From assembly GCF_032362555.1 (NCBI RefSeq), contig NC_083530.1:3688001-3752000 (forward strand): a stretch of DNA of 64,000 nt, given 5' to 3'. Under the pieces are notes generated by a model. That model saw nothing but the letters and a program-made list of their open reading frames with translations. It was not told the origin of the DNA and searched no databases. Below, piece by piece: positions 25,601 to 52,900 of the stretch. Positions within the stretch are counted from its first letter, which is position 1. Each line of letters starts with the position of its first letter. The DNA comes from Amyelois transitella. Taxonomy: Eukaryota; Arthropoda; Insecta; Lepidoptera; Pyralidae. Position numbers and translations under genes: made by a program.

Positions 25601-28600
25601 TAGCTCCTGACCTGACCTACCACCTAATGTAATGTGCATTATTTATTTTTGTTTTAGGGGGTTGGCATCTAAGAGTCTACTTAGCTATCATGATCGTGCC
25701 AGTAATATGCATTTGTTTAATTACGCATTTGAAATGGCTAGCACCTTTTTCCCTTGGAGCTAACATTGTAGTCGGTACTTATAAAATCAATTTTAAAACT
25801 CTTGCGTTTCTGTCTGTCTGACTAACAGATTACAAGCAAAACTACTGGGTATAGGAGAAAGGAACCAATAATCTTACGGTGAGGGTAAACGTCGAAGAGC
25901 GTCGATGGTCGAATCGGCAAATTGCCCGGTTAAATGCGTGTGGCGCAAAAGGCAAAGGCACAGGTTCGAATCCCACCTCGGCCTTGTACCAATGACTATT
26001 TTCGAAGTAATGTACATTAGTTTGAATGCTAACCGATGCTCTTACGGTGAGGGAAAACATCGTGAGGAAACCTGCACATTTAGGCTTGACCACTTCTTTC
26101 GCTTCATTCACATTCATCACTCTATTTATGCAAACTTTGCTGAGTTTTTAACCGACTTCAAAAAGGAGGTTTCTCAAGTCCGCGGATAACTTCGTCGTTT
26201 ATGAACCGATTTTGTTTTTTTTTTTTTTGGAAGGGGAGTATCCCAATGGTGGTCCCATGGTAAGGAAACCGGGATCTGATGGTGAAATCGTGAAGAACTT
26301 GAGGGAAACTCTCGTAACAATTGTCTTTCCGACTTGTGTGTTCCTTAAAGAACATATAGAGAATTTTAAAGCCCTATTATTCATGAGGGTTTGGTGTTGA
26401 TCTGATGAGGCAGGGAAAGGCAGTCGAGGGAACTCCTCAACGGTTTACAGCAAGAAATTTAAGTTTGGGCTTGATTAATTTATATTACTTTTTAGTTCCC
26501 GTTTTGAAGTTGGTTTTTTTGGTAATCACCAAAAAGTGGTACGTTCGACTTAGGCCCCATTTTTTACTACTTATATTACTATTTTGTAGGTATTGATTAT
26601 ATCTTGTTTCAGGTATCGCCATTATCATGGCAATTGGCTATGCCTTCAACAACAACCCAGGGTTTACGGGAATGACGTTAGTAACAACAGTCTATCAGCA
26701 ATTCGAGTACATGGGGATGCTGGTCTTCGGCATGTCATGCGCAGGAGTGGTCTTACCAATTGAGAACAATATGAAGGAGCCTCACAAGTTTAAGATTGCA
26801 CTTTTTATTGGTTAGTTTGCTGTTGAAATTTATTGTTGGTTTAAATGTTTGGGAAGAAACAACTGATTATGCTAAAGATACTAAATTACAACTCACATAG
26901 TTGCAGTTGACCGATATAAGCTTATAAGACGAAATATTCATATTGAAGTCATTAGTTTTATATTCATTCATATTTTTAATGTAGACAATGTGCAATGTGC
27001 ATGCGTCCAGAATTTAAATTTAATCTGTATTTGTAAATCGACGGCCGGTGAAAATGCTGCAGTGTAGTTTGTTTCGCCGCTTCTTCTACACGTATGTTTG
27101 GGAAGCGGTAGTAGTTATAATTACATTTAAGTGATGTGACGTCAATAAGTGACACCTTGTATCCAATTTTAAAAGTAAATCTGTTCTATTTTATTCTGGG
27201 TTAGTCTGTTATCCTCGCTAGGTCATCTAGAGAACTGTCCAGAAAACATATATCCTAGCCCTTCTTAAATGCTTAGCATGGTTCCGCAAATATTATACTC
27301 GTATGAACATACCGAGCGACGTTTGTTACGATATCATGTTCTATCCCTTATGTGTCCCATGTTGCTAGCCCGTCGTCCTAATTAATATTATTTTTATTCA
27401 TTTTTTACATCACTTGGTTACAGGTATGGCAGCGATTGTGTTTTGCACATTTTTCGTATCCTTCTTTGGTTATGCTGCCTTCTTGGATAAGTGTACGAGC
27501 CCTATTTCCTTGAATTTCAGCATGAACATGTAAGTTTGGGTCCTTATTTTTAAGAAACATACTTAGCACATTTATTTTGGAAAAAAATACCTATGAATTT
27601 CCTTGTTTACAAATCTCTCGATTTCATTTCGCATCTCGCTTTCTCCACTTTTCAACTGACTTCAAATTTGGAAAGTTTTCAATTTAACTGGTATATAATC
27701 TCCCCTTATTATAATGCTTAGATCTATCAAATTTAGGTTACTCGTAGTGGCACATATACCTGAGATCTGACACATCAGAAAGTAAATTATAAATTTCTAA
27801 ATTTATCCATTGCTGTATTACAACTTAACTGGAACTATGCTTTACTTGAAAGCAGTAGAAGATTTTATCATACCTAAGTTATGTTATCATCATAAAGTTA
27901 TCCTATTTTGAAAATAAATCTTATTTTATTACTTCCAGGGCCACAAAAATTTTCAAAGGCTGTGTGGCCGCAATGATCTACGTAACCCACGCGTTAAACT
28001 TTTGGGTGCCGTTCAATCTTTGTTTCTACTACATCAAGATTAGGGTCCATCCTAGCAAGGCTCTCATGTGGGAATTGATCTGCCGAGCTCTGTTCGTCAC
28101 TGGAGTGGGAATCATTGCTATTGTCTTCCCGAATATAAATAATTTGATGGGTTTTGTAAGTATAGCTGACTGAATTACATTATTGTTTCTGTTAAGTTTT
28201 AATCTTGACTGCCTGTATTTTTTTTTCATACAGTTATTTCATAGGTTTAATGAATAAGGAAAAATGAGTTATTATACATTTTAATTTTCGGTGCGTGCGT
28301 ATATATATCTATTAGAGGTAGCGTAATGAATGCACTTATAAATTTTATGAGAATGTTAAACTTCGAAACCCAAACAAAGATCAAGATGACTTGTTCAGTT
28401 TTACTTACTAAAGACACATAACATCATCATCACCTCAACTCAGTACCTAAAAGACGTTTTCCAAAGATTTCCACCTTGACAGAAATATTTGTTATTTAGA
28501 AGAGTTCATTCGACGAAGATGATTACGACTATCTAACAATAATTTTAATTCCCTAACAGCTCGGAGCCTTCTGTCTATCCAACATGGCTTTTATCTGGCC

Positions 28601-29735: not shown

Positions 29736-30105
29736 GTTGGTGGTCGAATGGTTAAGGTGTCCGCTTAAAATGCGATGTGCAGATAGGCACAGATTCGAAT
29801 CCACTCCCATGTACCAATGACTATTTTCAAAAGTTATGTTCATTATTTTGAATACTAACCGATGTTCTTACGGTAAGGAAAACATCGTGAGGAAACCTGC
29901 ACATTCAAGAATCTGTATGTGCAACCATGATCGATCCAATACGGGTAAGGTTTACCTGCAAAGATTGCAGAGGTCAGATGGGAATCGCTTCGTGTAAAAA
30001 CCTCACTCAATCATCCAGGGCCCATGGTCAAAGGCATATCCCGGGCTCCTCTCCAGAGTGGTGTGGATGCAACCGGAACTAAAAGCCAGGAGAGGAAGAA
30101 GATTA
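29736..30105 (+). repeat. REP-E SINE, nearly full length
   Basis: tRNA-derived head (TGGTCGAATGGTTAAGGTGT, then CACAGATTCGAATCCACTCC as B box) followed by the whole body: ACCAATGACTATTTTCAAAA, AACATCGTGAGGAAACCTGC, CAACCATGATCGATCCAATA, AAAAACCTCACTCAATCATC, and the end GGAACTAAAAGCCAGGAG. Useful as the reference copy for the family, about 370 bp. Confidence 0.85.
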
Positions 30106-30383
30106 CTACAGCTGAAGATAATAGCCCTTTAGATTTCTCTACAAAGATGGATGATTCTCTACAATACTCACAAAATCAAGTGAGAAGCGTAAAAATTAAT
30201 CAACACAATAATCAGCGCACAAGTAAATAACATTTTTATACGGCGTTCATAATATTTGCACGCTCTTATAAAATTGATTAGATACACAATGCTGTAGTAA
30301 CTAGTAATCAAAATGAATGTAAACCACCAGTTAATACAAAATGTTTTTGTGTTAAAAACGTAATGTAAAATTGTGACATCAGT

Positions 30384-31993
30384 ATGAATAAATTTAATCA
30401 TTTTGTTTTTATTTTCATAGTAGTACAATGTTATGCTGCAGTAAGTGTAATTGATATTATTGATTTTAATTTTAATAAAGTGACTACCACTTAAACTGAA
30501 TCTCGGTTTGTTGACGAAGCTGATGTTATTAAATTCTTAATATATCAATGAAAAAAGTGTAAAAGGTATATTATTTTGTCATGTATATATATATATAACT
30601 AGTATAAATTTAATATGAAAATTATTGAAAAGTTATAATAGCTTTATGACCAGGCAATATTATCACTAGCGATAAGAAACTGGAAACCAAAAAAACATTT
30701 TTATAAACATTTAAAACATATTCATATTAACCTCAAATATTTTTAGGTAAATATCGAAAAATTTACCGAAGATTCCGCGTTCAATGACAGTGAACGAACG
30801 GCAAGTAATAAATCATTGACTATTGCCGACTGGAGAATATACGATGAATCTGAAGAGGAAGACAAATCTTTATCAGATTTTGACTATGAGGACAACACTA
30901 ATGAGTATGACTTCTCTGGTGAAGATCAAAACGACAGTCCTGAAATAGAGAAGATTGAAAGAACATCAGAAACAAAAGCTAAACGACCAGCTATCTTAAC
31001 TGATTCCAAAACGAAGACAGTAGATGATGAACAGAAATCGGAAGAAGATAAAGAAACTCATCATAATAATGTGGAAGAGATTCCAGAATTATTGTTACCA
31101 AGAAGGAGAACAATGAACCCACGTCCAGATGTCAAAATTCCAAAAACTGTACCTTCAGTTGCCGACTCTGATTATCCTCTAGCGACACCACATCCATTTC
31201 CGATGTTCAGACCCAATTTCGGTAAGTGACTGTGGCTTTAAATTAAAACCAAAACCAGTTTGGGGCGAAAATACATTTTTTGTATATTTATAATGCGATT
31301 ACTTTAAAACCGTTGGTTTGATTTTGATGATATTTAATTTAATGTAGTTCGTGAGTCGTTTTTATTGGTTCACTCGTTTTTGGGATATTCACAATTTTCT
31401 AAAAAATTTAAATGTTTGCGTTATTTAAGTTTGTGGTGAACAAGACATCAGAAATGCCATATCATAAAACCTGTAGGAATGGTTTGTCGTGATGTTACAA
31501 GGCACGCAATTTTCTGCACAATTAATCTCATAATCAAGTGCTATAGTTTAATTCTAAGTTCTAATTAACGTAAATACTTATGAAAACAGAAAAAGTACTG
31601 AACTAAACATATATAGGTATGTTTAAGATAATATATGTAATGTTTTCAAACTATCATATCTGAATGTATTAAGATTTATATCTTGTCTATATTATATCTA
31701 TATTTAACTTAATTACTTGAATTCCGACATGTTTCTGTCAAACTTTTCCAGGCCAGTTCCCGAATCAACTATACAAGACGCCATTGCCTAACTATCCGAC
31801 AAGATTTCCGATATACGAGTATTTGAATCCACTTCGTGAGCCGCCAAAGCCTACCTTCAATTTTATGGGCAGCCCCGCATACAGTTACATGAGTCAGGAT
31901 ACGACAAATAACTATCCCTATATGGGACAAAAGAGTTTCGCGTCCATAACTTTTAAACCATTCTTACGATCATACATGCAATATCAGTTTTAA
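30384..31993 (+). CDS. Secreted acidic protein of unknown function (257 aa)
   Basis: Three exons: 30384-30440, 30747-31221 and 31752-31993 (TAA). Exon 1 codes exactly a signal peptide (MNKFNHFVFIFIVVQCYAA) and ends at a GTAAGT donor in phase 0. Residues about 20-130 are very acidic and serine-rich (DESEEEDKSLSDFDYEDNTN), then basic PRRRT, then a proline- and tyrosine-rich tail (PNYPTRFPIYEYLNPLREPP) ending FLRSYMQYQF. No cysteine is left after the signal peptide and no known domain is seen, so the mature protein is probably disordered. I do not recognise the family. It lies beside three other small signal-peptide genes. Start chosen because it gives a classic secretion signal with A at -3. 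A silk-, cuticle-, egg- or gland-associated role is possible but not shown. Confidence 0.75.
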
Positions 31994-32184
31994 TATAACG
32001 AATATTATAAGTACTTTTTACATAGCTTTCTGGGCAAGTTAAATTTAATTAAGGTAAATTGTATAAAATTCCATATAGTATGTAGTAGAACATAATTACT
32101 TATTTTAATTATAGTTATTTTAAAAGAGCATTTTTGTTTGTTATCACAGTGTGACTTTTTGTTCAGATTTCTATTGACTGTACT

Positions 32185-32572
32185 GGAATACAATTTTTTT
32201 CCTCCTGGCTTTAGTCCAGGTTGCATTCTCGACACTCTGGAGAATAGCCCGGGGTATGTCCTTGACCATGGAACCTGGATTGGGTGAGTCAAATTTTTAA
32301 ACGAAGCGATTCCTGACTCACCCCTGCAACAATTGCAGGGGAACCTAACCCGTATTGCATCGATCATGGTTACACATCCAGTTGGCATAGTGTGCACGTT
32401 TACTCACGATGTCTCACCGTAAGAGCATCGGTTAGTTTTGAAACGAATGTGCATAACTTCGAAAACAATCATTAGAAGGTACATGGCCAAGGTAGGATTC
32501 GAACCTGTGCCATTTGGCGCCACACACATTTTAACCGGTCACCTTACCGATTCAACCAGGACGCTAAACTAC
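32185..32572 (-). repeat. REP-E SINE, minus strand, nearly full length
   Basis: Reads in reverse: tail CTCCTGGCTTTAGTCCAGGT at the left, AACCATGATCGATGCAATAC-type middle, and the tRNA head at the right with the B box (inverted GGATTCGAACCTGTG). It lies between the two plus-strand secreted-protein genes. Confidence 0.85.
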
Positions 32573-32761
32573 AATTGTACTAGGCTACAATATTGATAGG
32601 ATTTACAGTTCTATGCAACCTTACGACAATTTTATCGCAAGAAATCACAAGCAATCACGTCAACTTTAATCATCAAAACATTATTACACCTGTATGGTAA
32701 AAACTTATAATTAACTTTGTAACTTTAACTGCAAATATTTTCGTTTCCTTGTCATGACAAT

Positions 32762-35700
32762 ATGAAGTGTGGAATTGTTGCCGTCTACGTTTTGCAAACG
32801 ATTTTTTTGACGGTAGGTAAGTTTATTTTAGCGAAAATAAAAAAATAAAATAAAACCAGCGTATTTTCAAAACACTTTCAAATTATACAAATCTCCTAAA
32901 TATGCTTAATCAGAACTTTGGCTTATTAAGCATATATTAGGAATTAAAACTACACCAAATTTAATTGCAGTGGCTAACTCTACAGTGACTAATACGTTCG
33001 TTTGGGAAAATCATACAAAAATGCAATAAAAGAAGACGCATCTAACTAACATCTAACAACTTAATACACAAAAACACAATAAATGAATAATTTATCAAAA
33101 TTCCGCAGGAATGTAGACTAAGAGAAGGAAATGGTGATGCAGGCTCAAATGAAGAAGATTATGGATATTCTGTTAACAGAGACAACATGCCCGAGGTACT
33201 AGACCCACCGGTAAGTACTGGATTTCCCAAACTTAAAATAATAATAATGAAACAAAAAAAAAGAATAATGAAGCCATGCATAACAAAACTCCCTGTTGAT
33301 GATAATTTAAACTTTTCAGCAAAAAAGTCCCCAACTTGAAAGTGAAATTGCTGCTGGAAGTTTTGCTGATGCTCTGTCGCCAAATGAACATTATTCCATA
33401 TCTAATCTGTATAATGATTTGGGTAGAAGATTTGTTCCACAGTATCCATATTATGAGAAAGAGGTAAGTCTCCAACTACTTATTTTTAATTGGGTACTTC
33501 TTACTCGTTCTAATGTTACCTATATAATGTTCAAAGAACTTGCTTGAGTGCATTCTGAAAACGCTGCAGATTAGACAAATGCGAACGAGAAAGATCGAAA
33601 AGCAGTATCTAGTACAACTGAGATTACGCAAAGATGAGAGAGAAATAAATATGTTTGTTACTAGTTTTCATGAAATTTTTAATAATAATGTAAAAAGTCC
33701 GATTGTTCATTGTTTTATCATTCTGTTTTCTTTGTTCGTACTATCAAAGTCATTTATGAGGACCTTTTGTTTTTAGAAACAATCTGAGGAAGACAAAAAA
33801 GCGGAAGATAATTTACACAAAGTGATACAGGTAGGTGAGAACACAGATGGAATGCCAGGAGAAGACCGATTTCCATCGCCGCCGACGGACGAACTCCTTA
33901 AAGGTCAACGCAGACTTGGCCACACCACAGTCTTCGTATTCGAAACGTTTTTATAAAGTTTTGTATTCAACTTTGCGCACTCGCCTGCGCCGTTTTCACC
34001 ACAGTACCTACCTGAATAATAGCTATCACTAATACTGAGGTGCGTAAGGAGCGGCTAAATCTGCGTTTATCTTAAGGGCCCTTAGACCCAGATCTACGTT
34101 GAAAAGTTTGTCTTTCTCTCTTCCTAGTGGTTTGGTTAACCTCAAAGATAAATAGAGAGTAAACGTTCATGAATACGAGTACACATCGTCAACGAGCTCG
34201 CAAACGTTAACTAGGTACTTATGTATATTTTCCTCCAACTATAAGCATATATTAGGATTTAACTACACTTAAATTAACTACAGTGGCTGACTCTAATGTG
34301 ACTTATTCCCCCAACTAACAAATAATTATTCAAGTGGAAAAGGCATAATAAAGTGCAGAAAGAGATGAGCTTGTAGAGTTACCTATTACATCTCAGAATT
34401 ATTAAAGATGGATAAATGTGCATCGAAAGGAAATATTCACTCATTTTCTTATATTATATTCAGACGAGATCAGAGATAAACGGATTCTTTTTTCCAGGAC
34501 ACCAAAGCTAAATACGAAAGTGATGACATTAAACTTCTTCCAGTCAAGGTAAGGTTTAACTATCAGGGAAAATCTGAAAAATCATTTCTTTACCTTCTCT
34601 TATAAAGCTCTTTCTTTTACCTAAGGGTCAGATAATAAGTAGCCTGATAACCCAATTGGTCTGAGGATTGATTTTTAGATATAATACTTATAATTTAAGA
34701 AAACTTATTTTGGCGATGGTACAATCAATGGGAGCATTTGCACTTCACTCCATTGGTATATAAGAATTCCGTGAACTGACTTTTAATAATACTAACTAAC
34801 CTCAAATATCTGTAGGCTTCACCAGAATTCGTCATGGAAGTCGCAAAGCAATCCAAATTGCTTGAAGATTCAAAACCTGTGAATCCTACTGATGAACTGA
34901 TCACTAAAGACAGCTTGAGATCAGGGGTAAGAAAAATACATATAAGTAATCACCTCTATATCCTTAGCGGGGACCACAGAGCTAATAAACTTGAACAGAC
35001 TGAAAGGTCACGTACAGTGTATGGCTTAATGATGATATCGAGATTCAAATAGTGACAAATTTTTAATACTTAAGATTTATGCACTAGTAACCATTGCATA
35101 TTTTTCTGTGGCCCAAAAATCAAACATTAGATCAAGGGACTTTCTGGTGAAAAAATTGAGTATCCTAAACTGCCGAGCTTGCCTACAAACATATATGTCA
35201 AGTTAGATGTAGGTAAGTGATTTTCAACCAGAGGTGGCAAGTGGAAAGATGTAATCTCTGCCAACCGTTCTAGGAAAGGGTAGTGTATTTTCTTTCTCAT
35301 CAATATGCTCTCCACAGCTAATAATCAATTTGTGTGTAACATTTTTTTAAAGGACTATTGGAACGATTTTTGGAAAGAAGATGTGAATCCGAATATTCTT
35401 CGAACTGGTAATGAGAAATATTCACAAAAGGTGAACAATTTTTTTCTTACAACATACCTAACTGACAAAGAGGACTCAACTTAGTTATAGTTACTTAGTT
35501 AAATGCTGAATAATAGATTAATGTGGACATAAAGGTGCCAAAAGATCCATTAATGGATTTCCAAAATGTATTTTAGTAGACGTAGGAAACAAGAATTACA
35601 GAGATAAGACGGTGGATAACTTACTTACTCCAGCGGGTTTATCAGCCAACGTTAACAAGGCATCTTCTCTTTTTAACCAAAGAGAAAAAGAGAGAAAAAA

Positions 35701-36795
35701 CATAGGACGTCTTCCTCCTGATATTAGTCTCGGATACATCCTCACTTTTTGAAGAGATGCCAAATGTATCTTGAACCATGATCCTGGGGTCAGTTTTATT
35801 TTTATCCGAAGCGTCTTCCGTCTCACCTCCGCAATTTCGCATGGAAACCTTATATTGGATCATGGTAACACCTCCAGTTTTCCCCCACTGAGGAAGATAA
35901 GACATAAAACTTTGTCAAAATTAATCAATAACCTCTCTGTATCATGCTTAAAGGCAAAATCCAACCTCTTCTAAAGGTAGGACAATAATTCACAACTACC
36001 CGAAAATACACCAACCAATTTTCACGTTCTTATGAGTATGGACTAATCGCCTATTAATATTTTATCTCCGATTCCAGGAAACTGTTCGACCGTTACCAAA
36101 ATTAGTAAGTCTACATACCTAACTACATACATACATATAGTCACGACTATATCCCTTGCGGGGTAGACAAAGCCAGCAGTCTTGAAAGACTGAAAGGCCA
36201 CGTTCAGCTGTTAGGCTTAATGATAGAATTTAGTAAGTATGTGTATCTTAATCATATATTCCTGATTATATTCTAGTTATCTTGAAATCTCAGGGTCTGT
36301 TATAAACAACTTACATAAGTGATAGGCAGTTTCCACACTGTGCAAGAATCCTGTGAATTACTAGCCCATTGAGTTGTCTTATCCCCAGTGGGTTAAAGAA
36401 TCCTTACTTTATTAGATTTTCCCTTAATAGACTCTCGCACGGAAAAAAAACGGAACACACTTTATACTATGTTCTTTTACCACAAAATGGTAACTAAACA
36501 TTTGAATAGGAACCTATCTAGTCAAGTTTCATTGCAGTGTAGGTATTGTTCCGCCGCTTCTATACATGCGCTTTGGAAGTGTAACGAAGTAGGTAGTTAC
36601 AATTAGATTTAAGTGATGTGTCGTCAATAAGTGATACATTGTATCCAATTTTGTAAATAAATCTATTCTATTCTATTAATTTGTTCCCAGGGCTCAATAA
36701 AAACCAAGATAATGCCTGGGACGAAGCTTTACCAATTAATATCAGTTTTGAAACGAATTTCCCCAAAGTTTTTGTATGTAATGAATGTAAATTGA
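32762..36795 (+). CDS. Secreted protein of unknown function built from nine phase-0 exons (about 240 aa)
   Basis: Proposed exons: 32762-32812, 33109-33210, 33320-33463, 33777-33830, 34498-34548, 34816-34926, 35353-35430, 36078-36104 and 36691-36795 (TGA). Exon 1 is a hydrophobic leader (MKCGIVAVYVLQTIFLT). The rest is hydrophilic and acidic: ECRLREGNGDAGSNEEDYGY, NLYNDLGRRFVPQYPYYEKE, KQSEEDKKAEDNLHKVIQ, DTKAKYESDDIKLLPVK, DYWNDFWKEDVNPNILRTGN, with a basic end (GTKLYQLISVLKRISPKF). Every exon is a multiple of three and every intron is phase 0, so exons can be skipped without loss of frame. Exon boundaries were picked by eye, so one or two small exons may be wrong or missing. No domain is recognised. 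Confidence 0.6.
34950..35060 (-). repeat. REP-A fragment
   Basis: CCTCTATATCCTTAGCGGGG, GAACAGACTGAAAGGTCACG and GATTCAAATAGTGACAAAT mark the tail half of REP-A. It sits just after the 34816-34926 exon. A REP-B piece follows at about 35160-35290. Confidence 0.65.
35690..35900 (-). repeat. REP-E SINE fragment
   Basis: CTTCCTCCTGATATTAGTCT, CCATGATCCTGGGGTCAG and TTGGATCATGGTAACACCTC are the reverse complement of the 3' half of REP-E. The reading frames across it are incidental. Confidence 0.7.
36115..36232 (-). repeat. REP-A fragment
   Basis: ACATACATACATATAGTCAC, CCCTTGCGGGGTAGACAAAG and AAAGGCCACGTTCAGCTG. It starts about 10 bases after the donor of the tiny exon 36078-36104. Confidence 0.8.
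36525..36680 (+). repeat. REP-D repeat
   Basis: GCAGTGTAGGTATTG, CCGCCGCTTCTATACATGCG, AAGTGATGTGTCGTCAATAA and a CTATTCTATTCTATTA tail. The tail runs to within about 10 bases of the acceptor at 36691, so the repeat supplies part of the polypyrimidine tract. Confidence 0.8.
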
Positions 36796-37033
36796 AAAAT
36801 ATATGGCATGGCCATTTGGATATGACCATATAGTTTATTTTATTTGATACCACAATATTTTTAAAATTGTAAGGTATATTGAAAGTTAGCTCTTGCATCC
36901 GTTCTTGTTATTTATGCATGCCATTCTTCATCCAATCAACAAAATAACTGCGTAAGTGAATATACCGGAAAAATACGTTCGTTGACATACAGATATTAGA
37001 TAGAAACAATTATATGTAGTCAACGAATATATC

Positions 37034-38215
37034 TTATGTACGTTTATGAAAAGGTGCGTTTACATGGTCAATAGTCAGCGTATTTGTCTGGAGCTGACCA
37101 TAAATATTTTTAAGGCTACACATTTCTATAAAAGCCTTCTGTAGGCATTGTTTAACTCTTTTCTTTATCCTACAACCGTCATCATACTCTATATAATCAA
37201 CGAAATTCCTCAGAGAATCCCTTAAAGTTTTTGGGTTCCTGATTTTGGTCATACCTTTTATAAAATAGTCAATGCTCTTCGGGTAAGCATTGATGAATGT
37301 CACTATTTCACCCAATCTCATTTCGTGTTCTTTCCTCAGTTTGATTCCCAATGCATGCCTATATTCGGCTTCTTTCTTTAACGTTTCCTGAGATTTTTTT
37401 TTTTGTTTGAAATGTCTCGGCATGTAATCGTATTGGCCGTAAAAATCTTTTTCTTTTTGTAACGTTCTCCTATATGAATCAAAGCTTAACAAGTCTTCTA
37501 GGTCATCGTTCAGAAATTTCACTAAAATAATTTTCATAAATCCTGAATCATAACCGTCAGATTCTTCATAAAGTGTCGTTTTATTGAATGGTAAGTAGTT
37601 TAGTTCAGGGAAATTATTGTGATCGAAGTAATCGTCTTCAGAAAGGTGCTCCGCAAACGCACGAGGTAAGACAGCGAGCTGAAATTTATGATGAACTGAC
37701 ATAAAATCCACAAAGATGTTAAGGTTAAGGAGCGTTCCAACTAAGGGTGCACGACACATAACACACTCTTAGGAAAATCGGGTATACAAAGGGAGTGTTA
37801 ATGGGAATGTTGGAGTGGGAAGGCCAACTGAAATGACGAACGTACATTGATCAATTCAGGGACGTTTTGGCAGAGTCAGGCGCAACGATTGTACACTCAT
37901 ATCATGAACCATCGTGAGGAAACCTGCACGTTCAGGCAAATGGATGTATAACCATGATCGAATACGGCTTTAAGTTCCCCTGCGTTGGTTGCAGAGGTCA
38001 GATGAAAGTCAAATCGTGTAAAAACCTGACTCACCCAATCATAGAATCCATGGTCAAGAGCGTACTCCGGGCTCCTCTCAAGAGTGGTTAAGATGTAACC
38101 GGAACTATAGCCAGGAGGAAGATCATAAACTATAATTTGGCACGTAACCATTAACCAAATAAATAAATACGGAGAAAAAGAAAATAACAATTACAATAAA
38201 TATGAACGCAGTCAT
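37034..38215 (-). CDS. Secreted protein of unknown function (about 238 aa)
   Basis: The main exon is 37034-37678. A first exon at 38144-38215 codes a strong signal peptide (MTAFIFIVIVIFFFSVFIYL then VNGY) with A at -3. Two joins are possible: TAC|GTGCCA to the acceptor before CTCGCT at 37678 (phase 0), or AATG|GTTACG to an upstream acceptor (TTTATGTCAG) in phase 1. Both keep the same main frame. The mature part begins LAVLPRAFAEHLSEDDYFDH, is rich in Lys, Asp and Tyr, and has a helical, charged middle (SYRRTLQKEKDFYGQYDYMP, RIKKRVKQCLQKAFIEM). Two cysteines near the C-terminus (DDGC, KQC, plus MCSL) may pair. No family is recognised. A SYRR-x2-Q-x2-K-x2-Y pattern also occurs in the neighbour at 39514-40134, hinting at distant relationship. 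The open frame continues upstream to an in-frame ATG at 37759, a fallback start without a leader. Confidence 0.6.
37905..38128 (+). repeat. REP-E SINE, head-less, inside the first intron of the minus-strand gene
   Basis: CCATCGTGAGGAAACCTGCA, ATAACCATGATCGAATACGG, AAAACCTGACTCACCCAATC and GGAACTATAGCCAGGAGGAA. Its 3' end is about 16 bases from the donor of the signal-peptide exon. A REP-B start fragment precedes it at about 37810-37880. Confidence 0.8.
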
Positions 38216-38454
38216 TGTTTTATATCACTCTGCGAGATGCAATATATAAGTACAAATACCTAACATTGCAGCATTTTGTGTGGGTAGTAAATATAATATT
38301 GGATTGGATACGTAATAAAATCCGATCAAATGCGTGTTGCAACAAAAAATACTGCACATGAAACAAATCTATGCTTTTCAAATTTCAATCGATCCTCACT
38401 ACAAGTATGTAAACTTCATTAAAATCGAGTCAAATTTATATGGTCAACCTGCAG

Positions 38455-38655
38455 ATGGTGCCGTGTGGCGCCCAGCATTTTAGAATAGGACCACTCCGTA
38501 TCTTTCACATGTCGTAAAATAAACTAGAGAATCTCCTTTTGGGCGATGGGCTAGCAACCTGTTACTATTTGAATCTCAATTCCACCATTAGGCCTAACAG
38601 CTGAACGTGTCCTATCAGAAAAAGACTGCTGGCTGGATTATATGAATGAATGAAT
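38455..38655 (+). repeat. REP-A copy, diverged
   Basis: GGTGCCGTGTGGCGCCCAGC start, GGGCGATGGGCTAGCAACCT and CAGCTGAACGTGTCCTATC, ending in GAATGAATGAAT. It lies upstream of the minus-strand secreted-protein gene. About 38660-39060 holds nothing else I can name. Confidence 0.75.
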
Positions 38656-39080
38656 AGAAACAAATTATGTACGGCTACAGAAATATCTCAAGAAATCTGC
38701 CAGAGTTGGTATTGTTATGGTATTGTTACATGTCGATGGGAACGCTAATAAAGAATAAAACCATGTAGTTAAAACAAACTTTTAATCAATTAATTCATAC
38801 AATTATGAGTTGCACCCTCAGCCTTCACGGATTTGGGTCCGCTTGAAATCAAATGTCAAATCACCCTGTCACTGGCGGCCATTTTTGAAGATGGTCTATA
38901 ATGAGAGTATTCATGGGTATATTATTTTGAAACTGGCAAGATTGACTGGTCCGGAAAAATTTTGCACACCTAAAAATACACAAAATTAATTTCCACAGAT
39001 TTTCTAACTTTGTTATAGTTAACGTCAAACTTGACTTTGCGGTTACAGTCATAATAATGGTATGTTGATTAAAAGTGGAG

Positions 39081-39435
39081 AGAGTCGGTGGTCGAATCGG
39101 TAAGATGCCCGGTTAAAAAGCGTGATGCGCAGAGCACAGGTTCAAATCCCACCCCGGCCATGTTCCAATGACTATTTCCGAAGTTATGTACATTCGTTTG
39201 AATACTAACCGATGCTGTTACGGTGGGGAAAAACATAGCGAGGAAACGTGCACATTCAGGTAACTGGATGTGTAACCATGGATCCAATACAGATTAGGCT
39301 TACCTGCAAAGGTTTCGGAGGTCAGATGCTTCATGAAAAAACCAAGCGGTCCTGAAACTTGGATCATGGTCAATAAGGAACACCCCAAGCTGAGAAGTGA
39401 GGATGTAACCGGGACTTAAGCCAGGAGTAAGAAAA
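39081..39435 (+). repeat. REP-E SINE, nearly full length
   Basis: tRNA-derived head (GTGGTCGAATCGGTAAGATG; B box CAGGTTCAAATCCCACCCCG), then CCAATGACTATTTCCGAAG, ACCGATGCTGTTACGGTGGG, and the end CCGGGACTTAAGCCAGGAG. It lies about 80 bases past the stop codon of the 39514-40134 gene. Confidence 0.85.
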
Positions 39436-39513
39436 ATAATGGAATTATTTCTTCTCTCGCAGTTTCACAATCCTCTAGACCCGAAGAGAGAAAGACAAAA
39501 ATGAAGAAAAAAA

Positions 39514-40134
39514 TTACTTCAGAGCTCTAATAATTTTCCTTCTATCCCTCAAATCGCACAAGGCGGGCACGTGCCCCTGAAGCAAAGCAAACATTTTCGT
39601 AATCTCATCCGGGTGCGCTTTCTTCCCTGACAAACCCTTTATTTGGTCTTGAAAATAAATAGTAGCCATCATACGAGTTTTCAGAAAATCCAACAATTTC
39701 AATACTTTCTTCTTAAAAGGTTTAACATTTTTTTTCATTACTTTGGTATCACGCAAATCGTACAGACTTTTGACACCTTGAAATATTCTACGGTACGAAT
39801 GATTCTCGCTATTAATATCATTATCTTGATCGTCTTCAGTTAGGTTATCGAGGTAAATTATTTTCAATTCTGGTGTTTTATCATTATAATATATAGCTTC
39901 GTTCGAAATTGGAATTGGAGGTAATTCTGAAATTTCTCCCAAGTCCTTGTCAGTTTTGACTTCTGTCCCACAAAGTAATATGACTGTACTAATCTGTAAA
40001 TTTTACACATTCAAATTAAATGATCGAAAATTCTGGTTAGTTTAAAAGTATATAAGATGGCAAGATATGTCTTCGCCAAATATTAAGTTATATATTAAAA
40101 AAAAATTACACATTACTTTTAGAATCAGGTTCAT
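39514..40134 (-). CDS. Small secreted protein of unknown function (165 aa)
   Basis: Two exons: 40117-40134 (ATG plus five codons, MNLILK, donor GTAATG) and 39514-39993 (acceptor TTTTACAG). Together they give a signal peptide MNLILKISTVILLCG followed by TEVKTDKDLGEISELPPIPI. The mature part has an acidic stretch (DNLTEDDQDNDINSENHS), then a basic helical half (SYRRIFQGVKSLYDLRDTKV, KKNVKPFKKKVLKLLDFLKT) and ends RDRRKIIRALK. Without the first exon the frame has no ATG before the acidic region, and the codons right after the acceptor are hydrophobic, so the two-exon model is favoured. Domain unknown. It shares the secretory layout, strand and the SYRR pattern with the gene at 37034-38215. Confidence 0.6.
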
Positions 40135-41391: not shown

Positions 41392-42985
41392 TTACCCCCA
41401 CTCAGTTATCTTCGTATTGGCAAAATCCTCCAGTTTAAATTTCTTGATACTTGGCGGCAGGCCTTCCATAGCATCAAAACTATCATTATATGTCCAAGGT
41501 AGAACATGGGTTAAGCCATTGCTGTCATACAAAACAGTGTTCTCATTTTTGACATTCGGTGCGTTCCTTCCGTCAAGCAGTTTGTTGTAGAGATCTTGAA
41601 ATGATGGAGAGTGGTTGTCTAAATTTGATCTGTTCTTTGTTAACACTGAAATTAAAATGAAAATATAATTTAATAAATATAACTTAAAAAAATTCATTTC
41701 AAACCATTAGTTCTTGAGATTAGCGTGTTCAATCAAACAAACAAACTCTAATATTATAAAGCTGAACTTTATAATATTAGTATAGATATATGGAAACTCT
41801 TGAAAAAGTTGACATATTGACTCTCGGCATCTGCAATCACATGAGTTACAAATATAACCAAATGTGTTAGGCTTGGTCAAACCTAAATACTGGCATACAA
41901 TAAATTCTCTCTCCACCCCTCTAGGGGCAAAATACAGGAGGTCAACTGTATTGTGATGTTAGTGTACAAACAAAGTCGCGTGCAACAACCAGTAACTTAT
42001 AAACTTTTTAATTGGACCTTACCATATTCTCTTAATTGATTGATCTGCTCTTGCGTATAGTGAGAATATCTGCATATGCCTCCAAACTGACATTCTCCTC
42101 GGGCAAAACGGAGACACGGTTTCTTCTTCTGTTCTTCAGCTAGTATTGTTTCCGGGTCTGGAATTTTAAGTTAGTATGTAGTAGTAGTCTTTGCCTACCT
42201 CTCTGGGAAAGAGGCATGATTTTTTGTATTTATGTTGAAGGTGTGTTCTCAGACTTTATAGTTTACTGATGAATACTAAATTGAAGTTTTATAATATGCT
42301 AACTACCTTTGCTCTAGTGGGAATTTCTACGAAATTCTTATCTACTGCTTTGATGAAATTTACTACAAAGAATAAGGAATAAGGGTAGAATGTAGTAAAT
42401 TTCATCAAAACTGTCCAGTAGATTTTAAGTGATAGAGGAACAAACAAACACACACACACCCACATCTTTGCTTCCCCTTAAGTTAACTTTTGAAGCCTGA
42501 AAGATATCATATTCCATACTAAAAGTGTGTTTTGTTTGTATTTCATGTCAAAACAACATAACAATCTTCATTTATAATTTTGAATACATATAGTGTGGAG
42601 TAAGGAGAAGGACGATAGAAAGGATATTTTTCATGTGGGGGAGCAGACGGTTTAAACTAGTTTAAAGCTTAAGCCAGCGTTAACATAATTGATTCACAGC
42701 AATTGTTACAAAAAGCCTGTAGTCGGCCGATCTTTAGAAATAATAACAAGAATCATTAAGTGAGCAAAATGAGCAACATTTTAGACAAGTACAAAAGAAC
42801 CAGGCAGCACTTACAATAACAATAGCGCTTACTAAATACGGTATAAGCTGCTACTAACCTTTAAATTTCTGATAATGTTCTTGAACCAGTTTCTGATGCA
42901 CGATACCTTTGTTATGTGTTTTTACTATGGCAGGTGTCGCTACCATATTTTTATCACAATAATTACAGTAATATCTCTTTCCCAT
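41392..42985 (-). CDS. ZMAT5: U11/U12 small nuclear ribonucleoprotein 20 kDa protein (ZMAT5)
   Basis: Component of the minor spliceosome U11/U12 di-snRNP, which recognises U12-type introns in the nucleus. Exons: 42859-42985, 42023-42157 and 41392-41645 (TAA), together 516 nt or 171 residues, against about 170 for the human protein. Residues 1-30 are a matrin/U1-C-type zinc finger: MGKRYYCNYCDKN with Cys7, Cys10, His24 and His30. Exon 2 encodes a CCCH finger (C-LRFARGE-C-QFGGI-C-RYS-H, spacing C-x7-C-x5-C-x3-H). The C-terminus has LPWTYND and MEGLPPSIKKFKLEDF, the short conserved tail of the family. The upstream in-frame Met at 43090 would add 35 residues, but MGKRYY is the family's usual start. 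It is transcribed away from UVRAG with about 0.95 kb between start codons. Confidence 0.92.
41715..41790 (+). repeat. REP-F end fragment
   Basis: AGTTCTTGAGATTAGCGTGT, AACAAACAAACTCTAATATT and TTTATAATATTAGTATAGAT match the 3' ends of the copies at 15171 and 46683. It lies in the last intron of ZMAT5. A REP-B fragment (CTACCTCTCTGGGAAAGAGG) is at about 42190-42230. Confidence 0.7.
42350..42408. repeat. 18-bp perfect inverted repeat in the first intron of ZMAT5
   Basis: Arms 42350-42367 and 42391-42408 (TTGATGAAATTTACTACA and its complement) with a 23-nt spacer. The pairing continues imperfectly outward (TCTACTGC against the complement of CAGTAGA). Confidence 0.85.
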
Positions 42986-43930: not shown

Positions 43931-46900
43931 ATGTTTGGGAGACCCCGATGTCGAGAGTGGACGCCCCTGGCGACTCAGCAACTTCGTCTGAGAAGCCTTG
44001 TACAGGTAAATAACAAAAGCAATATTTTGTGCCGTGCAGAACACCTGAAAGTGGCCTTTAAGACTTTTCAACACTGTTTCTCTGCCTACCACGTGAGGGA
44101 TAAATATATGATTATTTATGTAAGTATGATATTAATCAAATGACTACTTTCCTTCCATTCAACAGATTGTGGGCTACAATATACGACCCCCAGAATGGTG
44201 TCACACTCAGTGCAGCTTCTACCTGACTCTGCACCACACCACCATGTCGGCTCCGTTCTACACTAGTGAAAGAATATCTTCTCCTCACCCAAAATGGAAA
44301 GAAATTGATTCAGGTTAGTAAAAAGGAGTTATTCAATAAAATCAACAAAAGTTAATTATTTGCAATGCTGTATCTTTATAATAGTTCCTATGAAATGGAC
44401 TCCACTATAAATATTGGCTGTAAATTTTCTAAGCAACCTATTCCCAATCACATGGTGTGGCTTTATTTTTCTGGCATTTTAGAATAATGTCAATTTGTTT
44501 CATTCTTATTCTTCTTTTCATCTTCTCTCATAATTTTCATCTTATAACAATCATGATTCAAGCTTCATAGGTTAGAGTCATAAAAGTTAGTTTGGAGTCA
44601 CTCCAGGTCATTATTACACATACCATCTGGATCATTTCAATGGCACTGAATGTCATCATAAGTAATTACTTTTTAACAGTTACCAGTTAAGAATTTGAGT
44701 GCATTTAACATTATTCTGCAAGATCAAGTCTAAGGTGGTACACATCGTCTTTAATAATGCCTTTTTACTTTTGCTGGTAACGAGCTCTGCTTCTGATAGA
44801 AAAAACCGCATTATAATTGAAGGCTTAATTAGTTTATGAACGTTAAGATGTTTAATTTTATTTTCATATTAAATGTTAATGTGTTTGTCCTGGTTGCATC
44901 ATCCCCATGTGGTCATTATGCCCGCTTCTCCACCCTTATTCCTGAAAGTTGAAAGGCAATGTGTCTTATTTTCTCTCTCTTTCTATCACAGTTAACCTCA
45001 GAGCCCTTTGATGTTAGTGAATGAACCTGGTCTCAATTGTGTGAAAGTCATATTAGTACAAAGAGCAATGATAATCTTCATCTCCCGGCGCTAGGTACGG
45101 TTGCATCCTCACCTCTCTGGAGAGGAGACCATAATCCTCCTTATACCATGATTCGGAAATATCATTGAGTCAGGTTTTAAACGAAGGGACTCTTGTCTCA
45201 CCTCTACACTCTTACAGGGAAACATAACCCATATTGGATCACGGTTACATGGGTTTCTTCACGATGTTACAAGTTACAAGATTCTACTTTCGCTGTTTGT
45301 CACTATATTTTCCCTCACTTGACCATCAAATAACATTCAAACTAATGTACATCTTTCAAAACAAAAGTTATGGCTGAAGTAGGATTTGAACCTGTGCGTC
45401 CCTTGGGCAGCTTAACCTTTCGACTACTGACGCTCCGGCCCCAATGACCCTTGATAAGAAAATCGAAATGCGTAGTAAACGCACTGGCTATCCCAGTGAA
45501 CTACATTACGTCAGTTTGCGTGACACATGATTCACTGATAATAGGGTTAAGGATAACTTTGAACTGTATTTGCATGTATGTGTGTTTAACCCTGCCTTGC
45601 ACTAAATGCAACATACATAGGTTACTAAATACAATATACCTACTTATAATCACGTCTTTATCCCTTACGGGGCAGACAGCCTCGCAAAGACTGAAAGGCA
45701 CGCTTGATTCAGCTGCACGGTTTGATGATAGAATCGAGATTAAAATAGTGTCAAATTCAAATATATTTTATTTCCCTTCAATCCACCTTCGGAGCTGGTC
45801 TTTGGTAACCAAATATGAACATCTGCACAATCGGAACTATTATATGCACCTCAATTCCAACTTTAAGCCATACAGCTTTCAGTCAACAATGTGGCGTTTG
45901 AGTCTTTGTGAGACTTGGAATAGAATAGAATAGATTTATTTTAAAAATTAGATATAAAGTATCACTTATTGACGTCACATCACTTAAATCTAATAATATC
46001 TACTACCGCTTTCAAAAGCGCATGTGTAGAAAAAGCGGCGAAACAATCTACACTGCTACATTTATGTTAATATGTATCTATGTTAACGGAAATGTATACA
46101 ATTCCGAAGCTATTTAGGAAATGTATAAAATATTGTTTTAAAAATTATTTAATACATATAATATTCATACATATCCTGGGAGATGTATACATTTCCTAGG
46201 AATTGTATATAATTCGTAGATAATAAATAAATTGTGAGAGACTTATTTAAACTTGGCAAAATATTTTAGCAGACCTGACTTAATATTGTATGTATGTATG
46301 TTTTACCTTTGCTCAAGTTTCATATAAACAAACTATAAAGTCTAGCGGACTATAGAAATAATTTTGCTCATAGTAGTTAGTCAGATGTGTTATAAATTCT
46401 TCTATTTGTGAGGTTAGTTAAAAGTAATGGAAATGCGACCTGTGGATTGATAGGCACATTCCCTAGGAAATTGCTTGGTATTTCTTGATCTTTCAATGTT
46501 CAATGTATTGTCTATAAAGATATCGAGATATTCACACTGTTGCAACTATCGATAGGAGTTTGTTTATGTTATCAGTTGGTATGGCCGCCCCAAATGATAT
46601 AAGTATGTATCACCATGCATATCATAGAGGTTTTCCTCTTCATGTTATTGGCTTAGTAAACCTTTTATGTAAGTATATTATTTAGCTATGCCCGCGACTT
46701 CGTCCGCGTGGAATAGTTATTTTGGGCATCATTGAAGCCCTCAAGGATGAATAATTTTCCCCGTTTTTTTTCCTCAAATTTTCCCTTATTTCTTCTCTCC
46801 TTAAAGTTGCAGCGTGATGTTATATGTATAGCCTAAAGCCTTCCTCGATAAATGGTCTATTCAACACAAAAATATTTTTTCAATTCGAACCAGAAGTTCC

Positions 46901-49900
46901 TGAGATTGGCGCGTTCAAATAAACAAACAAACTCTTTAGCTTTATATTATTAGTATAGGTAGATAAAGATCGTTTACCTTAATTTGAGTGTTTAATTGCA
47001 TTCCATAATATAATCATCCTTTCATAAAATAATGCCACATAAAACCTAACATACAAAATTTGCTTTGTAATTAGGTATAACTATCGTAATTGTTTGACAC
47101 GAATATACGCCCGTTGATTCGACGGAAACGCAATTAAATTAACATTAATATGTGCATAATTAGAGTGACACATTTGTTAATGAGACAATCCATAGATAAG
47201 GGTTTATTTTTTAGGGTTACGTACGTTCTTTTGATTTTTGATGATAGAAAGTAGACTATAATGATAGTTCTGTGCGGCGGTGGGAATGTGATGTGATAGG
47301 CTGATACCCACCCAAGCCTGATGACTTGGCTACTGCCCAGTAGAAAAAAAGACGGGGTACTTATCATAAGTTTGACGTGTCGGTGGATGGGTTATGATTA
47401 TTTTTGTTTCAAATGTCGATATGTGAATGTTAGTCGTTATTTGATGGAAAGGAATTCGGTCCAAAATGGGCGCCCACCACTATCAGATTACATACATACG
47501 TATAATTACGTCTACATCATTGAAAATGCTGATAGGCCACGTTCAGGTGTTTGGCTTAATGATAATTGAGATTCAAATAGTGATAGGTTGCTAGCCCCTC
47601 GCCTAAAATAAGAATCCCAAATTTATTAGCCTCATATCTATATGGACATCATATAAAATAACTTAAAAGTACCTATAATACTATGAGTATATTAGACAAA
47701 ATTGTGTCAGAGGCCTTAATATTTTTATTTTTAACTCATTTACAGAATTAACCCAACGCATGTCATCAACGAACGTTGTCATCAGGATATGGTGTCACAC
47801 GCCACACGTCTCTCAGGAGGACGGTGAGAAATGTCACGACACGGTCATACAAACGTGGGGCGTGTATTTCACGGGGCTGCGGTACATAGGGGCCAACCTA
47901 GCTTTAAATTTCACCTCAGACTGTTTCAAAAGTAATACACTTGTATTCCAAATGCACGGAGGCTACTTTTGTTCCTACAAGAGTTTGAAATTAGATATAA
48001 TCCCGCCGGAGAACGAATTAGAACACGGATCTCTGTCGTCCAGCTCTTCGGGGAAAACGAATCTTTCGAAGATAACACTAGAACCTAAATTTATACAGTA
48101 TAACAAAGTTAGAGAAGCGAGATCGATATCGCCTAGTAAGTACTCTAGAAGAATCGATAAAGAGTATTCGAAAAGCAATAGTCCAGTAGAAAGAGGTTTG
48201 AAACAAAATTTCGCTACTCTTAAATCTTCAACTAGTCTAAACATAGCTCAGAAGAAAGAAGATAAGAATGATCCAAATTACATATACGAGCATTCGCCTG
48301 ATAGTTTAGATGTCAAAGAATTGCCTACGGGTACTCTGAATTGCTTCGGTTTTTCCAAGACATCGTCGAATGAGGATTTAGCCGATAACAATATAGATAT
48401 GAGCGAGACAGCTGAAAATTATGATTTAAGGAACGAATCGGAAGTACCTAAGTATAGGTATATATCGTTGAGTTTTTTGAAATCAGAAATAAGGCCCAGT
48501 TATAATGCTAGTAAGTTGCAGAAGCTACATTTGTTACAATATTCGATTAAGAAAAAACAGGAGGCGGTGCAAGAAATTAAAGAGAGGATTTATACAAAAT
48601 CTGCTTTAGCCAATGAAACGCCAAGAAATGAAGAGATTGATTTCAAATCGAGGGCGAAAAGTAAATCGCATAAGAGTTTGTTCTCTACGGAAGATGGTGA
48701 TAGTGATAAGAATAAAACGGCGTCACAAAGTGATTTGAGTATGAAGAACGGTAAAATTAAGGGGGATAGGCCTATCGTCTCTAATGGACCTCGGCTTACG
48801 TTGAAACTGAATGATCTCCTGTCTTTTAAGGTGAGTGTTGTTATTTAAAACTGTTTTCATAAGGCTTTGGCGTAAAACTCCCCTGTACAGTCAAGTTTGT
48901 AAAAAGACTTATCTTGAAAACACTTGAACCTGCCCTAACGGCATAAAAAATTGCATATAGGCAACTTTACGTTTCCTTGTACTTACATATCATTCCAAAT
49001 TCATCAGTATTAAATAATAGACTCTGCAGTTAAATCATCATAAACGTTATGTGTGTTTTTATTTTGTTTTCTTTTATTATTAATCTTAATATCGAGATAG
49101 TTGTGTTATTAATTATAAATTATTATTGTAAGAGAATAATTGTGTTATTTTAAACTATTTTTTATTTTTCAGTCAAAACCATCCCCGTTTGAAAGGTCCG
49201 AATACGTTAGACTTACAAAACAAATAGAAATACTACGCTTCAAGCGTATAATACTAGCGGACGAGAGAGACAGCAAGCTGGTTAATATAAGGAGACTGAA
49301 AGAGAGGCACGGTAAACTGTTGGAAGAGAATCAGGATGTTGGTAAGTCTTTATTAGACAGTGGCCGGTACTTAAATTGACTTATTCCAAACCTTATTTTG
49401 TTGCAACTCATATGCCGTGCTCTTATTTATTTTTGTCGTTAAGCTATTTATGTTTTTAGCTGTTACATACATACATATGGTTACGTCTATATCCCTTGAG
49501 GGGTAGACCGAGCCAACAGTCTTGAAAAGACTGAATGGCCATGTTCAGCTATTTGGCTTAATGATAGAATTGGGATTCAAATAGTGACAGGTTGCTAACC
49601 CATCGCCTAAAAAAGAATCCCAAGTTTGTAAGCCTATCCCTTAGTCGCCTTTTACGACATCCATGGGAAAGAGATGGAGTGGTCTTATTCTTTTTTGTAT
49701 GTGAAATTATTTTACAAATTGTAAATGTTACAATAAAGAATAGACAAATAAACAATTGTCATCGATTGCAGGCGTAGAACTAATGGAAAACTACCACAGC
49801 CTATCACGCAGTACTGAGACTGTAAAAGAAGCGAAGACCTCGTGCGCGGCGATGCGGGAATTAGCTGCTAGATCCTACGCCGCGTTACTAACCCGTAGGC

Positions 49901-52900
49901 AGGAGTTATTGAGTCAATTGCACCAGATATTTTATATTGAACAGGTAAGTTTGGGTAACTAGTACCTGGGTGACTGAGGGGTGCTCGGTTTACATCAGAA
50001 AAACCATTAAAATTATAAAAACAAAAATCGGGGTATGTCAGGGAAACCATATTTATAAATAGAACTAAAAACAAAATCAAGAATAATTGTTAAAACAAAA
50101 AAAAAACTTAAAACTTAAAACCGATCGCTCGCCAACTCGCTCGTCGCGCCGCCGAAATTATCGATCTCTTGCACCCATTTTATAAGAGAAAATGTTTTGG
50201 GAATCTCTTCCATTAATCTTTATCCCCATATATTATTTTTATCTCAACAGAAAGAGCCGTCAATATGGACGATATGCGACGTTCGCCTGCCAGTTTGCGG
50301 TGACGAATCCCCGCGAACTTCCAACGTCAGCGATTCCGTATCAGCCGGCTTAGCAGCTCAGGCCACAGTTCTAGCGGCGGCTGTGTTGAATCAGCCTTTG
50401 AGATATAAAATCACTTTGTTAGGATCCGCCACCAAGATATTGGACATCACCCCGGATTTGCCTGACCCCAAGTAAGTTTCTCTATATTTCTCACCTTTTT
50501 TGTGTCCCTTTCTTTTTTATATAATGTACCTAGTAGTACCATACATACATACATACATATGATCACGTCTATATCCCTTGCGGGGTAGACAGAGCCAACA
50601 GTCTTGAAAAGACTGAATGGCCACGTTCAGCTATTTGGCTTAATGATAGAACCGAGATTCAAATAGTGACAGGTTGCTAGCCCATCGCCTAAAAGAGGAA
50701 TCCTAAGTAGTAGTAGTACTACCAATAGAAAAAAATAGGGCCACTCAATCTGCTTTCCATGGATGTCGTAAAAAGCGACCAAGGGATAGGTTTATAAATG
50801 TTGAAATTCATATTTTGTTTATTTTATCATGGAGCCACACAGCAGATTGTGGCCTTTTCGAGACAGTTGGCATTGTCTACCCCTCAAGATACGTATATAA
50901 GTAGACGTGACTTTATGTATTCATATATTGTTTTTTTCCAGCATCCCGCTATATGCAAGAGGAGGGGATACTACGTTATTCCATTACGCAATGTTTCTTC
51001 TCAACAAATGTATAGCTCAGTTGTTGTGGGGCCGGGGAATACCCATATCCGACATGAGACCGACACTTGCCAATCTGCAGAAGCTGTTGACCGCACCTTG
51101 TAATGTGTAAGTGTCTTTATTATCCTTAAAATATAAAAGAGACGCCCTGGTGAAAGGTCCGGTCGAGAGTACTTTAAACCGACGTTCTTGAAGGGAGTTA
51201 TGGATGTGGAAATGAGAAACGTAGTTTCTCAGTCCCTAAAAAGTAAATTATCGAGTGTTTGCCAAAAATTTGTGACAGTTATTAATTTATGTAAATGAGA
51301 ATTAACTCTAACATACCGTTTTTCCTGACGTTTTGATCGGGAAGGAAGTATAGGAATTTTGCAGAGATCTTTAGGGAATATAAAATTTTATTCCTGGTTT
51401 CTTTACAAAATGAAACGGTGACTGGTTTCACCAATGCTTAAGTGCAGTGCAATCACTGATTTCTATATTTGGTATGTGGTAGCTTATGTATATTGTTTCA
51501 TTTTGTTTTGAAGGCAAAGGAAGTTTATTGTAGGTTATACAACGATACAATATTTTAAATCAACCATAGATAACTGTCGAAGAATATATTTCAACCCATT
51601 TTCGGAAGCAATAACGTTGGTACTTCGATAAGATTCCGTTAATATATTTCGTTTTTTTTTTTGTTATTTACAATAATATAGTTTGTGCCTACATATACTT
51701 TCTTTATCTTAATAATTTATCATACACCCTTTTGACTGTCTTAATTCATTGTTCATTAATTTGTATGTCCATGTGTATGTATATTTTGTGAATATGGAAA
51801 CGATATTTGAAGCATATTTTAACAGTATATTGTGAGTGGTGGTATGTAAGTGTGTAATTATCATGTAAAAAGGGGAGCTTTCAGCAATAGGATTTAAAAC
51901 AAATATTTTCATAATTTCTTAAACTCACGCATCCTTCATCATTTTATTATTTCTGTACACAAATTTATTCCGCAAAATTTATGGCTACTATAAAATTTAC
52001 GTCTAACAATGTGTTAGACATACGCCTAATGCAATATTGCTAGCCGTCACGATAAATTGAATCCTATTTCCTAGGGCGGACACACAAAAGTTGTTTGGCA
52101 CGTACAAATGGCTTGAAGACAACCAATGCCCTAGGACGCAATCGTTGAGGAGTTTGGTTGCGCAAGAAAGAGGGAAATTTAGACAGTTCAACAGATTTAA
52201 GGTAAGGATGTTGGCATGTTAGTATTGAGATAACTGCAACTTTTGGTAACAGTCAGACTTAGAGCAATTCAGTGACGTGTAAAATTGTGATATTTAATAT
52301 TTAACCAGCCGATGCCCGCCACTTCGTGTGCGTGGCTTAACAATTTTTGATAAGATTCAAATTATTGGAGTGTTAAAAAATTCTTCATATACTATATTGG
52401 GGTTCTTTCCTTCGAGCGCTAATATAAAATGATCATTAGGCTGAAAACCTTAAGGTGCAATTTCCATTGTTCCTATAGTTGTTGCATCAGGTCTTCGATT
52501 TTTATAATTTATATACCTATTATTTGAAATACCATCACTTGCGATGTAGTACTTACAACTTTTAATAGTCTTACATTATTCCAAATTGTATGTGACCGCA
52601 CCACCTGATTACGAAATCAGCCTTCAAGCATTAGTTACCAAAAGAAAGGTTATCTCTTTATATGTGGAATGGTTGGATGTGTTTTTATTAACATTGCATT
52701 TTATGGCATGATTGATGTTTCAATTAACACTTTTTTTTAAATTTAAACGTGCGTTTCGTAGATTATTTGTATAAAAAAACAATGAAAACTTTATTCAATT
52801 AATTGCTTTTTTTTAGTATTCGGTGTTAGAATTTTATTTGCTGGATGTAAGCCTGAATTTTGGAATGCTTTTTTTTTCTCTGGTTAATTTGCGTGATTAA

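Follow-up and report, generated by a model that had tools for sequence, protein, structure and literature searches.

Does the stretch between positions 30384 and 40134 of the window carry four real genes for secreted proteins, and do these genes belong together? The window is the whole stretch of DNA that was analysed, 64,000 nucleotides of the Amyelois transitella contig NC_083530.1. The initial annotation had placed four small genes here within 10 kb, two on each strand, and had presented them as an undescribed system. Our models agree with the extent of the cluster, as its four coding regions (g1 and g2 on the plus strand, g3 and g4 on the minus strand) run from the ATG of g1 at 30384 to the candidate ATG of g4 at 40134. 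At its core, our reading, an ordinary one, is that these are four real, secreted and lineage-restricted genes, probably confined to a lineage of Lepidoptera. We consider this as probable as not, a judgement that covers the core and not the tissue.

The models were assembled by hand from splice sites (Table 1), and the first intron is in phase 0 in all four of them. They comprise 3 exons and 257 aa for g1, 8 or 9 exons and 253 or 240 aa for g2, 2 exons and 221 or 229 aa for g3, and 2 exons and 165 aa for g4.

Table 1. Positions in the window of the exons of g1 to g4 and of the neighbouring genes
Feature	Position	Strand	Basis
g1 exon 1, signal peptide MNKFNHFVFIFIVVQCYAA, phase 0 end	30384-30440	+	donor GCA/GTAAGT
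g1 exon 2, acidic region	30747-31221	+	codon score; identical boundaries from in-house gene finder
g1 exon 3, Pro/Tyr/Phe-rich C-terminus and stop	31752-31993	+	consensus acceptor; best of six frames
g2 exon 1, signal peptide MKCGIVAVYVLQTIFLT, phase 0 end	32762-32812	+	signal-peptide test; absent from gene finder's chain
g2 exons 2-6, all phase 0	33109-33210, 33320-33463, 33777-33830, 34498-34548, 34816-34926	+	consensus splice sites, coding score
g2 preferred 3' exons and stop	35137-35212, 35580-35752	+	model score; also picked by gene finder
g2 alternative 3' exons	35353-35430, 36078-36104, 36691-36795	+	lower model score
g3 candidate exon 1 (MTAFIFI)	38195-38215 (alternative end 38171)	-	donors 1.4 and -1.0
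g3 exon 2, terminal coding exon	37034-37678	-	214 open codons
g4 candidate exon 1 (MNLILK)	40117-40134	-	donor 2.3
g4 exon 2, terminal coding exon	39514-39993	-	159 open codons
Amino-acid transporter array, three tandem copies	6472-28754	+	homologous exon sets between copies
ZMAT5-like gene, three exons, 171 aa	41392-42985	-	U1-type zinc finger and CCCH finger
Large gene, conserved-looking	43948-54981	+	exon 47748-48830, presumably UVRAG-like

The genes flanking the four are ordinary and conserved, and the cluster would be positioned between the tandem amino-acid transporter array and the ZMAT5-like gene. Part of one transporter copy, the one searched against Pfam, matched Aa_trans with an E of 2.2e-33, and we take the copies to be SLC36/pathetic-like. 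In the gene on the other side, which we assume to be ZMAT5, the zf-U1 family was accepted (E 1.7e-06, 28.1 bits, above the Pfam cut-off of 22) and zf-CCCH scored 20.3, just under its cut-off of 20.5. A signal-peptide-like frame at 41392-41706 was considered as a fifth secreted gene and rejected, because it is the last exon of this zf-U1-bearing gene. For the large gene beyond it, two pieces were searched, and neither gave an accepted Pfam match; the exon 47748-48830 had no Pfam hit. Within the window there was no Rfam match at the gathering score and no tRNA. Among the papers listed in a literature search on gene order, none named both the transporter and UVRAG.

Two families of short interspersed repeats are also found in the window. 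One has seven matches (29800-30130, 32192-32486, 37907-38122, 39158-39343, 25982-26080, 45075-45240 and 6887-7000), four of them inside or adjoining the cluster, with 37907-38122 lying in the g3 intron. The second is more numerous, with a match at 38519-38618 and 20 others across the window.

The main exons of g1 to g4 carry a real coding signal. Synonymous codon use was scored after training on 1523 codons that other frames in the window supplied: 16 pieces of transporter exons, one exon of the UVRAG-like gene and one further open frame. It was compared with 1928 open frames from 15 dinucleotide shuffles; these null frames are at least 60 codons long, so the comparison flatters the short exons of g2. 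The frame of our models was the best of six in 12 out of 14 exon pieces, the failures being the eighth and ninth exons in the first g2 model. The mean codon log-odds of g1 exon 2 (0.145) is above the maximum of all 1928 null frames (0.138). The codon score of g1 exon 3 is weak, above 83% of the null, though this frame too is the best of six.

Signal peptides were sought with a crude in-script test (a hydrophobic core followed by a small-residue cleavage site), with random placement as the chance control. In 300 random placements, an exon of this kind with a donor of at least 4 within 400 bases arose with a frequency of 0.00 for g1 and 0.01 for g2, and at the loosest setting, within 600 bases, chance rises to 0.08 and 0.15. 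For g1 and g2, a signal peptide on its own first exon is thus well supported, and the secretion of these two proteins, which fall in no known family, is supported as well. The initial annotation had described a signal peptide split off, or nearly so, by an early intron as a trait of the whole cluster. This is confirmed for g1 and g2, where the signal peptide is followed by a good donor and an intron in phase 0. The candidate first exons of g3 and g4 are indistinguishable from chance: 0.12 (score at least 2) to 0.41 (at least -1.5) for g3 and 0.54 (at least 2) for g4.

For g3 we prefer the shorter first exon, with the better of the two donors. The MTAFIFI start would give g3 and g4 one layout, with a first exon of 6-7 codons. 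The case for secretion of these two proteins draws on the N-terminal residues of exon 2 more than on the first exons, as exon 2 opens with signal-peptide-like residues in both (LAVLPRAFA in g3, ISTVILLCG in g4). It is plausible that g3 and g4 also encode secreted proteins of no known family.

The absence of known domains, which the initial annotation had claimed, found support in the libraries searched: none of the four proteins had a Pfam match at the curated cut-off. The best result was that of g4 against CC_BshC (E 0.0072, 16.6 bits, cut-off 27). Other scores were also below their cut-offs: 13.1 against 25 for g4 and Ku, 6.7 against 27 for g1, and 12.6 against 23.8 for the first model of g2, with 12.5 for the second; g3 had no Pfam match. 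In NCBIfam there was nothing for two g1 exons, g3 exon 2 and g4 exon 2, and the one g2 match was far under its cut-off and not accepted. No PDB sequence was a convincing match; the best E values were 0.27 for g1, 0.01 for g2, 0.53 for g3 and 0.27 for g4, and a g3/g4 profile had no PDB match at E 1. We read two resemblances as chance: the one between g2 and bacterial cytochrome cd1 nitrite reductase, which gave the best E of 0.01, and the one between g1 and bacterial lipases (26 rows, best E 0.27). The collections searched include insects only through the content of Pfam and the PDB.

Transfer from viruses or bacteria was considered and rejected, as the contigs scanned gave no confirmed relatives. 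PHROGs gave chance-level rows only (E 0.11-0.29). In viral contigs no relative of g3, g4, g1 exon 2 or g2 was confirmed by tblastn. In prokaryote genome contigs a pattern-based scan, which covered the g3/g4 alignment, yielded no confirmed relative.

The composition of the proteins agrees with the initial description of them as acidic or rich in Lys, Asp and Tyr. The pI is 4.74 for g1 and 5.03 for g2, and 8.57 for g3 and 9.30 for g4; g3 contains 11.2% K, 8.3% D and 6.8% Y, and g4 13.6% K, 10.2% D and 4.1% Y. Mature g1 and g2 are cysteine-free. In charge-hydropathy terms, g1 (0.378 vs a boundary of 0.434) and g2 (0.405 vs 0.426) fall on the disordered side, g3 (0.406 vs 0.419) slightly so, and g4 lies at the boundary. 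In AlphaFold2 models of the second exons, g3 is mostly helical and so is the second half of g4, but a mean pLDDT of 37.6 and 39.7 means very low confidence, too low for use.

Lineage restriction, tissue and role of the four genes are inferred, as are the secretion and the paralogy of g3 and g4. The proteins would be produced in a secretory gland, where the signal peptide would be removed before release. Acidic, cysteine-free and probably disordered, g1 and g2 would be components of an extracellular matrix or fluid; g3 and g4, basic and rich in helix, would be small soluble partners. An extracellular role is a reasonable guess for proteins of this class. By resemblance of class, our first guess at the site would be the reproductive tract, in seminal fluid or in the spermatophore, though this is less likely than not.

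The same mechanism and the same core could apply in another tissue, with the four proteins as non-repetitive components of silk, saliva or eggshell rather than of the male reproductive tract. In Ephestia and Galleria, the genes for sericins, seroins and zonadhesins of silk are clustered (PMC9745057), and g1 and g2, being acidic and without cysteine, would fit a matrix. Against this, Tandem Repeats Finder at its default score found no array within the four genes, and none of the proteins is Ser-rich or repetitive in the manner of sericin or fibroin: Ser makes up 4.1-9.0% of them, vs 21% and 29% in repetitive genes of the sericin cluster (PMC9745057). We regard this placement as possible, on balance unlikely.

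Less likely still, g1 and g2 might be one gene, or the 3' end of g2 might be mis-joined, leaving three genes or other products. The unconstrained gene finder indeed linked g1 exon 2, g2 exons 2-6 and the preferred 3' exons of g2 in a single chain with a score of 71.0. Its boundaries are identical to ours for 4 out of 5 of g2 exons 2-6, and it uses the same start for the remaining one, at 33777. It left out both signal-peptide exons and g1 exon 3. However, the finder has no signal-peptide term, and its fused chain takes in exons that come from two copies of the repeat (29800-30130 and 32192-32486). Moreover, a signal-peptide exon with a good donor is present in g1 and again in g2, and a stop closes g1 exon 3.

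Taken as a separate chain, g1 does not stand out from the null: its score of 11.5 is equalled in 13 null strands out of 30, or in 14 if a tie on rounding is counted. The g2 chain reached 27.3-35.6 vs 21.3 for the best null chain in 30 strands. The lower and upper values for g2 belong to its competing ends, the alternative and the preferred 3' exons, respectively. The acceptors of the preferred exons are weak (1.3 and 3.0), and the first model has eight introns, each in phase 0. We regard the 3' end of g2 as uncertain.

We keep g1 and g2 apart, and turn to whether the four genes are related. None of the six pairs is significantly similar once six comparisons are allowed for. In whole-length alignments under ten settings, g3 and g4 gave p values of 0.013-0.059 with full shuffles and 0.019-0.090 with local ones, uncorrected for the six pairs, and 0.02-0.11, likewise uncorrected, in a separate run of shuffled alignments. 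This pair had the lowest full-shuffle p in 9 out of 10 settings, g2-g4 being lower in the tenth. The margin is small, because g2-g4, which we do not take as related, scores nearly as well (0.027-0.109 with full and 0.052-0.163 with local shuffles, uncorrected for six pairs). Homology of g2 and g4 is unproven at these values, as is that of g1 and g2 (p 0.05-0.54 by setting and shuffle). BLASTP between g3 and g4 was not significant (E 31), and flanking DNA, where similarity might have been a trace of duplication, gave a best blastn E of 0.22.

The initial annotation had also pointed to a pattern, SYRR-x2-Q-x2-K-x2-Y, common to the two minus-strand genes. The pattern is present, with 7 out of 13 identities in this segment, but 6.65% of 2000 shuffles equalled the match anywhere (p = 0.067) and 2% did so when the offset was allowed to differ by at most 20 residues. 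A segment with 7/13 also occurs in the control pair g1-g2. The motif is only suggestive as a sign of kinship. We read g3 and g4 as possibly or probably tandem duplicates of old date, though unproven; for g1 and g2 these alignments prove no relationship, either with that pair or between the two.

A rival reading takes g3 and g4 as decayed or non-functional open frames, a pair in appearance only. The SYRR and BLASTP values and the nearly equal score of g2-g4 point that way, as do the weak first exons of both genes. For g4 it also draws on the poly(A) signal, as no match to any of four variants occurs within 500 bases after the gene, though AATAAA is expected only 0.85 times in such a length. Against our core reading itself stand the whole-chain scores of g3 (-0.3) and g4 (1.2), which show no excess over the null, and the gene finder, which hit the g3 acceptor but missed the g4 model. 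Among the four genes, only g3 has AATAAA within 500 bases past the stop.

On the other side, exon 2 of g3 is open for 214 codons, and no frame in 15 shuffles is as long (longest 165). The length of g4 exon 2 alone is not rare, as frames of at least 159 codons occurred three times in 15 shuffles. Both second exons have codon scores above 99% of the 1928 null frames, and their codon use is coding-like in the frame of our models and not in the other five. The rank of g3-g4 among the six pairs also speaks against a pair in appearance only. Altogether, we think it improbable that g3 and g4 are decayed frames, and retain both as putative genes.

The claim of a single undescribed system found no support, with no significant pairwise similarity in six comparisons and no sign of joint action; it is most improbable that acidic, disordered g1 and g2 and basic, helical g3 and g4 form a co-regulated module released together as a charge-condensed extracellular gel of a type undescribed so far, for instance the matrix of a spermatophore, a plug or the coat of an egg.

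If our preferred reading of four secreted genes is confirmed, four lineage-restricted genes would join the many known in insects, possibly including an old duplicate pair in which the trace of kinship has almost gone from the sequence. Should all four be expressed in one tissue, this neighbouring set of acidic and basic proteins would be a compact case of new extracellular materials arising.

Fast-changing genes for secreted proteins without a recognised family are common in insects, and many are expressed in glands. In Lepidoptera, 38 orthogroups that lack homology outside the order date from its base (PMC11837612). Like such restricted families, g1 to g4 gave no homologue when the general libraries were searched. 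In the accessory glands of Heliconius, about 1/3 of the unigenes lack a GenBank match and about 25% encode secreted proteins (PMC2621208). Our proteins are like these in their signal peptides (g1 and g2) and in the lack of a match in the searched libraries. They differ from the abundant Heliconius groups described there, which are repetitive and Tyr- or Asn-rich, in having no array. As for silk, the main text of the Ephestia and Galleria study contains neither 'amino acid transporter' nor 'UV radiation', and its landmark gene names sit in the supplement (PMC9745057). Apart from the differences in Ser content and repeats given above, the locus is like the lepidopteran sericin and silk-gland clusters of that study in its arrangement, that is, in adjoining genes for proteins that are, in our case, predicted to be secreted.
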